From positions 1 through 33,747 of the forward strand of contig SCQY01000040.1 in the NCBI GenBank assembly GCA_004298665.1: a stretch of DNA of 33,747 nucleotides. Direction: 5' to 3'. Of this stretch, positions 2,485-32,414 are shown piece after piece (the first letter of the stretch is position 1; every line of letters begins with the position of its first letter). The translations under genes and the position numbers were made by a program. The notes under the pieces are model-generated. The model saw nothing but the letters and a program-made list of their open reading frames with translations. It was not told the origin of the DNA and made no database searches. The DNA is from a bacterium. Its GTDB lineage: Bacteria > Vulcanimicrobiota > Vulcanimicrobiia > Vulcanimicrobiales > SCRA01.

Positions 2485-3249
2485 ATGCGCATCGAAGGCT
2501 TGAGCGCGATCGTCACGGGGGGAGCCTCCGGACTCGGAGCGGCTACTGCCCGCAAGCTCCACGCGCAGGGGGCAAGCGTCGTCATCGCCGACGTAAACGC
2601 CGCAGCAGGCGAGGCCGCCGCCAAAGCACTGGGCAACCGCGCCGTCTTCGTGCGCACCGACGTCACGGACGAAGCCTCGGTCCAGGCGGCCGTCGCCGCC
2701 GCCTCCGCGCTGGCGCCGCTGGGCGTGGTGGCCAACTGCGCCGGCATCGCAATCGCCGAGAAAGTCGTCGGCCGCGAGGGACTGCACAGCTTGGAGCGCT
2801 TCACCAACGTCATCCGGGTCAACCTCATCGGAACCTTCAACGTAACGCGCTTGGCGGCCGCCGCCATGAAAGCCGGCGAGCCCAACGCGGAAGGCGAACG
2901 GGGCGTGGTGATCTGCACGGCCTCCGTAGCCGCCTTCGAAGGGCAGGTCGGGCAGGTTGCGTATAGCGCTTCGAAGGGCGGCGTCGTCGCCATGGTGCTT
3001 CCGCTCGCGCGCGAGTTCGCGCCGCTGGGCATCCGCGTCTGCGCCATCGCGCCGGGCATTTTCGACACCCCAATGCTGGCTGGGCTCCCCGAGGCGGCGC
3101 GCATCTCGCTCGGCCAGCAGGTTCCCTTCCCCTCGCGCCTGGGACGCCCCGACGAGTACGCGGACCTCGCCGCTCACATCGTCAGCAATCCCATGCTCAA
3201 CGGGGCGGTGATCCGCCTGGACGGCGCCATTCGCATGGCGCCGCGCTAG
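2485..3249 (+). CDS. SDR-family dehydrogenase, 3-hydroxyacyl-CoA dehydrogenase type 2-like
   Basis: A 254-residue classical short-chain dehydrogenase. It has the cofactor motif [10 protein letters not shown] at residues 11-20, the acidic residue after strand 2 in IADVN (an NAD preference signal), NCAG at 84-87, catalytic Ser147 in CTASVAAF, and Tyr160/Lys164 in YSASK. The stretch around [19 protein letters not shown] and the ending [13 protein letters not shown] resemble HSD17B10/type 2 3-hydroxyacyl-CoA dehydrogenases, which oxidise 3-hydroxyacyl-CoA in fatty or branched acyl degradation. The ATG at 2485 has GAGAGGAG 4 nt upstream. The gene is divergent from the thiolase remnant and is followed after 16 nt by the acyl-CoA synthetase/GNAT fusion, so an acyl-CoA role is likely. 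The exact substrate is inferred. Confidence 0.85.
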
Positions 3250-3265
3250 CGGCGGCGGAGCGGTT

Positions 3266-5950
3266 ATGGCCAAGGCTCGCCCGCGCGGCCTCGACGCGAT
3301 CTTCGCACCGCACACGGTGGCGGTGATCGGCGCCACCGAACGCCTAGGCAGCGTGGGCCGCGCCGCGCTCTGGAATCTCATCGGCCATCCGTTCGGGGGA
3401 ACGGTCTACCCCGTTACGCCGGCGCACGCGAGCGTCATGGGGATCAAGACCTACCCCACCATCGGCGACGTACCGGAGCCCGTCGACCTGGCAGTCATCG
3501 TGACGCCCGCCAAGAGCGTCCCGGATCTGGTGGGCGCCTGCGCCGACGCCGGCGTGCGAGGCGCCATCGTCATCTCCGCGGGCTTTCGCGAGATCGGCGC
3601 CGCCGGGGCGGAGCTGGAGCGGCGCATCCTCGAGCAAGCGGCCCGCGGCGACATCCGCATCGTAGGTCCGAATTGCCTGGGCGTCTTGCGCCCGGGCAGC
3701 AACTTCCACGCCACGTTCGTCGGCGAGTCGTCGCAGCCGGGGAGCGTGGCATTCATCACGCAGAGCGGCGCCTTGGGAGCCGCAATCCTCGATTGGTCGA
3801 CCGAGCAGCACATCGGCTTCAGCGCTTTCGTCTCGATCGGCTCGATGCTGGACGTGGGATGGGGCGATCTCATCACGTACTTCGGTGAGGACGTGCACAC
3901 GCATGCGATCGTACTGGCGATGGAGTCGATCGGCGATGCACGCTCCTTCCTCTCTGCGGCGCGCGAGGTAGCGCGCAGCAAACCGATCATCGTGCTCAAG
4001 GCCGGGCGTACCGAGGAGGCGGCCCGTGCAGCGGCCTCCCACATCGGCGCACTGGTAGGCATCGACCAGGCGCTGGACGCGGCCTTCCGGCGCTGCGGCC
4101 TGCTGCGCGTCGACACGATCGCCGATCTTTTCTACATGGCGGACGTGCTCGCCAAGCAGCCGCGCCCGCGCGGCAATCGTCTGGCCATCATCACCAACGC
4201 CGGCGGGCCGGGCGTGCTGATCACCGATGCGCTGATCGCCGGAGGCGGCGCCCTGGCCGCACTCTCGGACGAGACACTTGGGGCGCTCAACCGCGCGCTT
4301 CCCGAAGCGTGGAGCCGCAACAACCCGGTCGACATCTTGGGCGATGCCGACGCCGCGCGCTACGCCGCGTCGTTCGAGGTCGTCTGCCAAGACCCCGGAG
4401 TCGACGGAGTTTTGGTTGTCATGGCCCCGCAGGGGCTGGCCGAGGCGACACCCATCGCCAAGCGGCTTGCCCCCTTCGCCCACACCACGGGAAAGCCGCT
4501 GATCGCCAGTTGGATGGGCGGCATCGAAGTCGCCGAAGGGGCCGCCATTCTGAGGCGTGCCGGCATTCCCGCGTTCTCCTACGCCGACACGGCGGCGCGC
4601 GTGTTCAACTACCTCTGGCGCTATGACGAGAACTTACGCGCACTCTACGAGACGCCGCTGCCGCCGGACGACGTCGTGCCGAATACGGCAATTCCCAAGG
4701 CGGCCGGCGCGCTGATCGACGGGGCGTACGCAGCGGGCCACACGCTGCTCAGCGAGACGGAATCGAAGCGCCTGCTCGAGCTCTACCGCATTCCCGTCGT
4801 CGAGACGCATACCGCCGCCGACGCCGAGGAAGCGGAGCGCATCGCCGCACAGATCGGCTATCCGGTAGCTCTCAAACTCCACTCGCACACCGTCGCACAC
4901 AAGCGCAGCGCGGGCGGCGTGAAGCTCCACCTGCACGACGCCGCCGACGTGCGCGAAGCCTTCGAGCGCATCCGAGCGGCCGTACCGCCAGCGGACTTCG
5001 ACGGCGTCAGCGTCCAACCCATGGTCAACGAAGACGGCTACGAGCTCTTCCTCGGTGCAGCGCTCGACGCGCAGCTGGGCCCGGTGATCGCCTTCGGCCA
5101 CGGCGGGCGGCTCGTCGAGACGATCGAAGATCGCAGCCTCGCGCTCCCGCCCCTCAACTCCACCCTTGCTCGCCGCATGCTGGAGCGCACGCGGATCTTG
5201 CACGCATTGGCGGGAGAACACGGCGAGCCCGTTCTCGATCTGTCGCAGCTCGAGCAGGTGCTGGTGCGGTTCAGCTACCTCGTGGCCGAGCAGCGTCAGG
5301 TGCGCGCCATCGAGATCAATCCGCTCTTCGCCGCACCCGGGCGTATCGTCGCCCTCGACGCGCGCGTGGAGCTGCATGCGCCGGGGACCCCGGCCGCCTC
5401 GATTCCGCCGCTGGCGATTCGACCGTATCCCGTCCAATACGTCGACACGTGGCGCATGCCGGATGGCCAATCGGTTCTGATTCGCCCCGTGCGCCCGGAA
5501 GACGAGCCGCTCATGCGGGCCTTCCACGACACGGTCTCCGAGCAGAGCGTCTACATGCGCTACGCCCACGTGCTCTCGCTGCGCGAGCGCATCGCCCACG
5601 AGCGGCTCAGCCGCGTCTGCTTCATCGATTACGATCGCGAGATGGCGCTGGTCGCGCTCACGGGCGAGGAACCGCCGGCGATCATCGGGGTGGGCCGTCT
5701 GGTGCGGCTGCGCAACAGGCGCAGCGCCGAGTTCGCCGTCCTCGTGAGCGACCATTACCAGCAACGCGGCCTCGGTACCGAGCTGCTGCGCCGTCTCGTA
5801 GCGCTCGCCCCATGCGAAGGCATCGACCGGGTCGTGGGCTACATTCTGCGCGAGAACAGCGGCATGCAGGAGGTCGCGCGCCGCCTGGGATTCACGTTGC
5901 GATACTCGGAAGAGTACGGCATGATGGAGGCGGATATCCGTACGTTGTGA
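3266..5950 (+). CDS. ADP-forming acyl-CoA synthetase fused to GNAT acetyltransferase (Pat/Pka-like)
   Basis: An 894-residue multidomain protein. Residues ~8-140 form a CoA-binding Rossmann domain ([19 protein letters not shown]). Residues ~150-460 are succinyl-CoA-ligase-like domains containing [12 protein letters not shown] and ASHIGALVG with His259. Residues ~485-705 form an ATP-grasp domain ([23 protein letters not shown]). Residues ~730-894 are a GNAT domain with the acetyl-CoA loop QQRGLGTEL. This arrangement is that of the Pat/Pka protein acetyltransferases that silence acetyl-CoA synthetase by lysine acetylation. His259 sits where active ADP-forming synthetases carry the phosphorylated histidine, so the synthetase half might still be catalytic. 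The start ATG has GGCGGAG 5 nt upstream. The gene follows the SDR by 16 nt and probably shares its transcript. Confidence 0.88.
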
Positions 5951-18479: not shown

Positions 18480-19091
18480 GTGAGCCGCGCGCGCAACCTC
18501 CTCACCGTCACGCTCCTTGCCGCCCTCACCGCCTGCGCCCCGCATGCCGGACCGGCGACGTCCACCGCCGCGGCCGCCGACTATGGACCAGCCCCGGAGT
18601 TCACGCTGCCAAACGTCGCAGGCGGCGCCTTTACGCTGGGCAGCCATCGTGGAAGCGTGGTCGTGCTGAGCTTCACCGCCGCCAACTGCACGGAGGAGTG
18701 CCCCGTACTGGAGGCGATCCTGCAGCGCGCCGCACGCGTCTGGAAGGCACGCGGAACTCTCGATCGCGGGGTGACGATCGCCACGATGGAGATCGATCCC
18801 AAGACAAACGGCATGGCGGCAGAGGCCAAGCTGCGCGCGAAGTGGTGGCCGGCGCCGGGCTGGGCCTTCCTGCGCGGGGACGCCGCGCACACGACGGCCG
18901 TGCTCAACGCGTACCATATTCTCGTGCTCCCTCCGCCCAAGGGGCACGACGACGTCGAGCACACAGTCGAAGTCTACGTAATCGATCCCCAGGGCCGCGA
19001 GAGCGACATCCTCGCCCCCGGGGCGAATCTCTCGCTAGCCGCCCTCGAGCGCGCTGTCGAGCGCGCCTATAAGCCTTCCGGGAAGACGTAA
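18480..19091 (+). CDS. SCO1/SenC-family thioredoxin-like lipoprotein
   Basis: A 203-residue protein with a lipoprotein signal (lipobox LTAC, Cys19) and a thioredoxin-like domain. The copper-binding CxxxC is present as NCTEECP (Cys70, Cys74), and the third ligand is probably His161 in DDVEHTVEVYVID, the usual spacing and context in SCO proteins. SCO proteins deliver copper to, or reduce thiols of, the CuA centre of cytochrome oxidase. No oxidase gene is in the window, so its client is unknown. The GTG at 18480 begins 3 nt after the tolC stop and lacks a clear ribosome site, suggesting translational coupling. Its 3' end overlaps the convergent unknown gene by 25 nt. Confidence 0.85.
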   Translation: MSRARNLLTVTLLAALTACAPHAGPATSTAAAADYGPAPEFTLPNVAGGAFTLGSHRGSVVVLSFTAANCTEECPVLEAILQRAARVWKARGTLDRGVTIATMEIDPKTNGMAAEAKLRAKWWPAPGWAFLRGDAAHTTAVLNAYHILVLPPPKGHDDVEHTVEVYVIDPQGRESDILAPGANLSLAALERAVERAYKPSGKT

Positions 19092-31625: not shown

Positions 31626-32414
31626 ATGGCGCTACGCTCAACGCCGCGGGCCCTCTCCGCCGCTACCCGCCGCGACGTCCTCTTTCACGCACTGGCCTTC
31701 ATCGCCGGCTTCACCATCGTCTTCGTCGCCGCGGGAGCGACGGCGAGCGCCCTCGGCCAGCTCTTCGCCGAATACCGTCAGGTACTCACGCGCGTCTTCG
31801 GCGTCATCGTGATCCTGCTGGGTCTCAACATGCTCGGCGTCTTCCGCCTCACGTTCCTGGCGATGGACAAGCGTCCGCACTTCCAGCGCAACGGCATCTC
31901 CTTGCTGGGCTCATTGCTGGCCGGTGTGGGCTTTGCCGCCGGCTGGACACCATGCATCGGACCGATCCTGGCGGGAGTGCTGGCTCTGGCCAGCGCCACG
32001 CAGAGCGTTGGCTCGGGGATCCTGCTCCTCTTCATCTACTCGATGGGGCTGGCGTTGCCGTTCTTCCTGATGGCCGTCGGCCTGCAGTACGCGCTGCCGT
32101 TGCTCGCCCGCATCAAACGCTTTCTGCCCGTCATCGACGTGGTGGCCGGCGTCATCGTGCTAGCGGTTGGTCTCGTGCTCTTCACCAACTCGTTTCTGCG
32201 TTTTACGGCGTGGCTCTATCAGACATTTCCCGCCGCGGCGACGCTGGGCACGGGGCCGACGCTCGGCGGCGGCGCGATCACCATCGGCGCAACGTTCTTG
32301 GCCGGACTCGTCTCCTGTATCTCACCATGCGTGCTGCCGCTGCTCCCGGCCTATCTCTCGCTGCTGACGGGACAGAGCATCGAGAGCCTCGTTGCTTCGT
32401 ACGAGAGCGCGTGA
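31626..32414 (+). CDS. CcdA-family thiol-disulfide membrane transporter, circularly permuted
   Basis: A 262-residue six-helix protein carrying all CcdA parts in a changed order. It opens with what is normally the loop and second helix (RRDVLFHALAFIAGFTIVFV, residues 15-34), continues through FAAGWTPCIGPILAGVLALA with redox Cys110, and ends with the usual first helix, FLAGLVSCISPCVLPLLPAY (residues 224-243, Cys235), plus its loop LTGQSIESL. CcdA/DsbD proteins carry electrons across the membrane for cytochrome c and thiol reduction through this cysteine pair. A TAA in frame four codons before the ATG rules out a missing N-terminal helix. Helices lie at about 19-43, 54-75, 92-120, 128-153, 165-197 and 221-248; positive loops place both ends inside. 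No ribosome site is clear. Confidence 0.85.
   Translation: MALRSTPRALSAATRRDVLFHALAFIAGFTIVFVAAGATASALGQLFAEYRQVLTRVFGVIVILLGLNMLGVFRLTFLAMDKRPHFQRNGISLLGSLLAGVGFAAGWTPCIGPILAGVLALASATQSVGSGILLLFIYSMGLALPFFLMAVGLQYALPLLARIKRFLPVIDVVAGVIVLAVGLVLFTNSFLRFTAWLYQTFPAAATLGTGPTLGGGAITIGATFLAGLVSCISPCVLPLLPAYLSLLTGQSIESLVASYESA

Follow-up and report, generated by a model that had tools for sequence, protein, structure and literature searches.

A putative natural circular permutant of the membrane protein CcdA, with probable repeated origins in bacteria and archaea

The window, the whole stretch of 33,747 nucleotides analysed here (contig SCQY01000040.1 of assembly GCA_004298665.1, from a bacterium of the order Vulcanimicrobiales), carries on its forward strand an open reading frame at positions 31626-32414, with an ATG start and a TGA stop (32412-32414). 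The encoded protein is related to CcdA, a membrane protein that exports reducing power from the cell. The helix order TM1 to TM6 of ordinary CcdA is absent from it, and its chain is arranged as TM2-TM3-TM4-TM5-TM6-linker-TM1. The features of the gene, with their supporting evidence, are the following:

31626..32414, + strand: permuted ccdA, 262 aa (open reading frame, PF02683; single-HSP homologues in three congeners)
31626..31679, + strand: new N-terminus (residues 1-18), the second half of the former cytoplasmic TM1-TM2 loop, with four Arg (A3 alignment, charge count)
31665..32192, + strand: core TM2-TM3-TM4-TM5-TM6, residues 14-189 (PF02683 model positions 40-216; 5vkv residues 39-216)
31953..31955, + strand: codon of Cys110, redox cysteine in the WTPC motif of TM4 (invariant column in A3 and A4)
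32193..32288, + strand: old C-terminus and Gly-rich linker (residues 190-221), predicted to be extracytoplasmic (alignment, comparison of ends, charge count)
32289..32354, + strand: moved TM1 helix with SCISPCVLPLLPAYLS, residues 222-243 (profile positions 216-249 matching 5vkv residues 2-35)
32328..32330, + strand: codon of Cys235, redox cysteine in the SPC motif (invariant column in A3 and A4)
32355..32411, + strand: new C-terminus (residues 244-262), the first half of the former TM1-TM2 loop (alignment; loops of ordinary-order proteins compared)

These assignments bear out the layout proposed in the initial annotation. The SPCVLPLLPAY helix had been placed at the C-terminal end of the protein and does lie there (residues 222-243, with SPC at 233-235). 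The Gly-rich linker expected at about residues 205-219 is present at exactly these residues, within a segment (190-221) that also bears an FP..LGTGP motif conserved across the window's class. The old TM1-TM2 loop, thought to be split over the two ends, was resolved by alignment into two halves, residues 1-18 and 244-262. An in-frame stop is found five codons upstream of the ATG, as claimed, and no SPC helix is encoded upstream, even in the three congeneric genomes G001-G003, in which the open frame reaches further 5'. The moved helix also contains an extra cysteine, Cys231 (SCISPC, codon 32316-32318), four residues before Cys235; it is common to the window's genus and genome G091 and is replaced by Phe in family f3.

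A Pfam search with the window protein returned only DsbD_TM (PF02683), with an E-value of 2.5e-18 and a score of 66.6 bits against a curated cut-off of 27.1. The match falls into two stretches, the better of which aligns model positions 40-216 with residues 14-187; in the permuted genes, PF02683 places the core ahead of the SPC segment. A profile (A3) was then built from 35 permuted proteins and searched against the sequences of the PDB. Its sole strong match was the Thermus CcdA structure 5vkv (E 2.9e-53), aligned as two swapped blocks: profile positions 216-249 correspond to residues 2-35 of the chain, and positions 16-202 to residues 39-216. AlphaFold2 models made with 35 and then 61 sequences were alike and of moderate quality (pLDDT 74.8 and 76.4, pTM 0.72 and 0.73), with low confidence in the linker region. 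With these moderate models, 5vkv was the only PDB fold matched at a probability of 1.00, with TM-scores of 0.48-0.58 over the sequential part.

All 61 permuted proteins aligned retain P109-C110 and S233-P234-C235 without change. Cys110 and Cys235, previously suggested to form the redox pair, are thus both fixed in the permuted homologues, while electron transfer itself is inferred. The proposal that the positive loops agree with CcdA topology also held: in all 35 proteins examined, Lys and Arg are more abundant in loops predicted to be inside than in those predicted to be outside (mean 12.5 versus 3.0). Among four congeners, dN/dS for the gene as a whole is about 0.06-0.16. In most congener pairs the moved helix shows similar or stronger constraint, and purifying selection extends across the new junction. 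Judged from its sequence, the gene is a circular permutant of CcdA in which all segments of the parent occur once, in rotated order and with the old ends joined. Since its profile, cysteines and charge topology are those of CcdA and its order is 2-3-4-5-6-1, we classify the protein as a permuted variant rather than as an ordinary member of the family.

Homologues with the same order, which the initial annotation had suggested seeking in related genomes, were found in congeners, in another order and in other phyla. Matches spanning the junction in a single HSP were obtained in G001, G002 and G003 with 82-92% identity, as well as in G091, in 12 genomes of family f3 and in G108. Permuted ccdA is present next to purD in all four species sampled from the window's genus. 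Elsewhere in the window's class, it is found in the 12 f3 genomes, which belong to another order, and in one genome of the sister family f2 (G091). The single draft genome G108, from another class, encodes a more distant permuted protein that is 43% identical over the junction. To cover more lineages, 84,980 species genomes (one per species) were scanned and the best 80 loci were examined. Among these, 23 show a rotated order: one in a congener (L081), 15 in Chloroflexota, six in DPANN archaea, and one (L087) with another rotation. Even sampling detected permuted junctions in about 25 of 400 Chloroflexota genomes and in 27 of 279 genomes of one DPANN phylum (about 10%); the latter sample contained 22 further partial matches, and all 14 of those that were read have the ordinary order. 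The L087 locus (Chloroflexi bacterium SB0661_bin_43, about positions 2840-3615) encodes, in one frame, TM4-5-6 followed by TM1-2-3, so that the protein is cut in the TM3-TM4 loop and Pfam positions 128-215 precede 8-103; no other CcdA piece was seen nearby at this locus. Two Woesearchaeota loci (L104:331-3363 and L095:190-3366) carry a permuted ccdA and an ordinary-order CcdA-like gene in one run of genes, which also holds genes for TlpA-like lipoproteins.

In the window, a hydrolase gene and an MFS gene lie upstream of the permuted ccdA and purD is convergent; no redox partner is encoded beside it. Further away in the window, positions 18480-19091 carry a SCO1/SenC-type gene (PF02630), of an extracytoplasmic, thiol/copper-linked type. 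The permuted gene of G091 is preceded by a gene for an AhpC-TSA/redoxin protein, and in DPANN archaea a gene for a Thioredoxin_8/Thioredoxin_10 protein lies directly downstream. G001 carries a second permuted ccdA (L051:2545-3308, the same as G001:C26:18559-19298), split by a frameshift near a contig end, which could be a pseudogene or reflect a sequencing error; a CcsA gene follows it. Retention of CcdA function in the permutants, although inferred, is the best reading and is backed by these thioredoxin-like and CcsA neighbours. Adjacent ResB and CcsA genes occur in the window's genome, and established knowledge of System II cytochrome c maturation leads one to expect a CcdA-type reductant here. 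The same genome also encodes an ordinary-order CcdA (G000:C256:10165-10923, 38% identity in the core) and a more distant relative, which means that the main CcdA is not necessarily the permuted one.

In family f2, the ordinary ccdA sits between divergent lgt and lspA-rluD, and in f3 the permuted ccdA occupies exactly this place. Because permuted and ordinary forms share the lgt-ccdA-lspA-rluD locus, the permutation in the window's class probably occurred in place. The contigs carrying lspA in the window's genus (G000:C308:7386-7790 and G001:C75:39415-39816) have no CcdA match, and permuted ccdA is found next to purD; in this genus the gene therefore seems to have moved away from the lgt-lspA locus. 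Ordinary f2 proteins end in FYQFVPTPKL and alphaproteobacterial ones in FPxLAxxG. In the permuted chain, the old end is kept and is followed by a short linker (GTGPTLGGG in the window) and then by the old N-terminus, which is what duplication, read-through and trimming would give. A possible route would thus start with a tandem duplication of ccdA, followed by read-through fusion and by loss of TM1 from the first copy and of TM2-6 from the second; the event would have taken place in an ancestor shared with f3, probably in the lgt-ccdA-lspA-rluD locus. No duplication intermediate was found, and no remnant of a duplicated gene was seen in three frames downstream of the permuted genes; in G120-G122, the frame continuing past the permuted ccdA stop is lspA.

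Whether the permuted genes descend from one event was addressed with trees of the TM2-TM6 core, from which the moved helix was left out. In a careful tree that excludes the long-branch rows L004, L086, L106, L109, L118, L127, L140 and L151, the window-class permuted genes group as one clade (support 100/99), sister to a clade of ordinary f2 genes, with 100/100 for their union. The permuted genes of Chloroflexota and DPANN fall elsewhere, and G108 groups with ordinary genes of Acidobacteriota and Pseudomonadota. When ordinary DPANN genes were added, the permuted DPANN genes formed a clade (97) placed within a DPANN clade (100) that holds ordinary genes too. A single ancient permutation, inherited or transferred, with the mixing of permuted and ordinary genes due to tree error, could be argued from the cut loop, which is identical in nearly all cases, from the small alignment (190-210 columns, with several long branches) and from G091, a permuted gene turning up within a lineage of ordinary ones. 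We consider it unlikely: the moved helix is not part of the tree, permuted genes of the window's class and f2 ordinary genes are fully united and, in f3 and f2, lie at one locus, and AU tests reject both a single clade of all permuted genes (p-AU 0.0009) and one of the DPANN and Chloroflexota genes (p-AU 0.00013). In principle the ancestor could have been permuted and the ordinary genes revertants, but each reversion would be a circular permutation too. Trees and AU rejections therefore support at least three independent permutations, and the best reading of the sequences is that these occurred at the TM1-TM2 loop in the window's class, in DPANN and in Chloroflexota. The count would rise further with G108, and also if the Chloroflexota permutants are split. 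We think it likely that permutation was repeated and took place in situ, with at least three to four events at the TM1-TM2 loop (probably including G108) plus the TM3-TM4 event of L087, the cysteines and topology being preserved, and in one case also the locus.

Three further explanations concern the order itself, the role of the protein and its packing. The window comes from a draft genome of 362 contigs, and one might suspect an error of assembly or sequencing, or an ordinary ccdA that is truncated and by chance ends in an SPC-like segment. This is hardly credible and was rejected, as the identical order recurs in many independent assemblies from several phyla, including long contigs (L088 in a record of 5.1 Mb, L139 in a contig of 2 Mb), and purifying selection acts across the junction; the earlier exclusion of a truncated normal gene is confirmed on the same grounds, with no assembly error. 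A new role, such as that of a metal or arsenical permease instead of thiol electron transfer, could draw on a weak, below-cut-off match to an ArsG-type transporter model and on the lack of a redox neighbour in the window. It appears very unlikely in view of the two invariant cysteines with their PC motifs, of the genes for thioredoxin-like proteins or CcsA that adjoin it in three lineages, and of several draft genomes in which the rotated gene is the sole CcdA match. Packing of the C-terminal SPC helix into an adjacent subunit, giving a domain-swapped oligomer, is not excluded given the low model confidence in the linker region; it seems quite unlikely, because the topology need not change for packing within one chain and because some linkers, such as that of G108, are short.

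The natural circular permutation claimed by the initial annotation, with TM1 moved to the C-terminus, is thus supported by the swapped match to 5vkv, by the same order across phyla, by purifying selection on the moved helix and by positive-inside loops. That the protein is a working CcdA-type thiol carrier is the best explanation and in our judgement very probably correct, although there is no experiment and the fold, packing and function are inferred. An ordinary six-helix bundle would form despite the permuted chain; this is inferred because the two ends of CcdA share the extracytoplasmic side. The linker would bridge the old ends on that side, and the new ends would be cytoplasmic, leaving every helix direction unchanged. 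Cys110 and Cys235 would be reduced by cytoplasmic thioredoxin and would in turn reduce a thioredoxin-like protein on the extracytoplasmic side, a transfer that may serve cytochrome c maturation by System II (ResB-CcsA) as well as related thiol reduction.

Circular permutation is well documented in soluble proteins, and such rearrangement is rare among membrane proteins. Here, permuted and ordinary orthologues are easily aligned, occupy one locus in related families, and recur in bacteria and archaea. Since such natural pairs differ mainly in chain order, any required order of helix insertion becomes directly testable: if the permutation is true, the pairs would allow the effects of insertion order on membrane-protein folding to be tested. 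As order-dependent profiles see the permutants only partly, these lineages may be wrongly scored for the presence of CcdA and for its start sites. No description of a permuted CcdA or DsbD was found in the open literature; reports elsewhere are not excluded.

Compared with known systems, the window protein shares with Thermus CcdA (PF02683, 5vkv) the six helices, both PC motifs, the redox cysteines and the loop charges. It differs in its C-terminal TM1 and in its ends, which are predicted to be cytoplasmic, whereas those of the Thermus protein are extracytoplasmic. An orthologous unpermuted relative exists in the ordinary f2 genes, which are sister in the tree, have 43-58% core identity and lie at the lgt-ccdA-lspA-rluD locus of the permuted f3 genes; they differ in having TM1 first. 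The central membrane domain of E. coli DsbD is homologous to the permuted CcdA (weak match, NCBIfam PRK00293), but the window protein has no periplasmic domains, has six helices and is permuted. The nearest precedent is VKOR/DsbB, thiol-redox helical membrane proteins circularly permuted through duplication and deletion, which their authors called in 2015 the first case in an alpha-helical membrane protein (PMC4555120). VKOR and DsbB are distant families linked mainly by structure, whereas the two ccdA forms are plain sequence orthologues found at one locus, and their permutation is recurrent.
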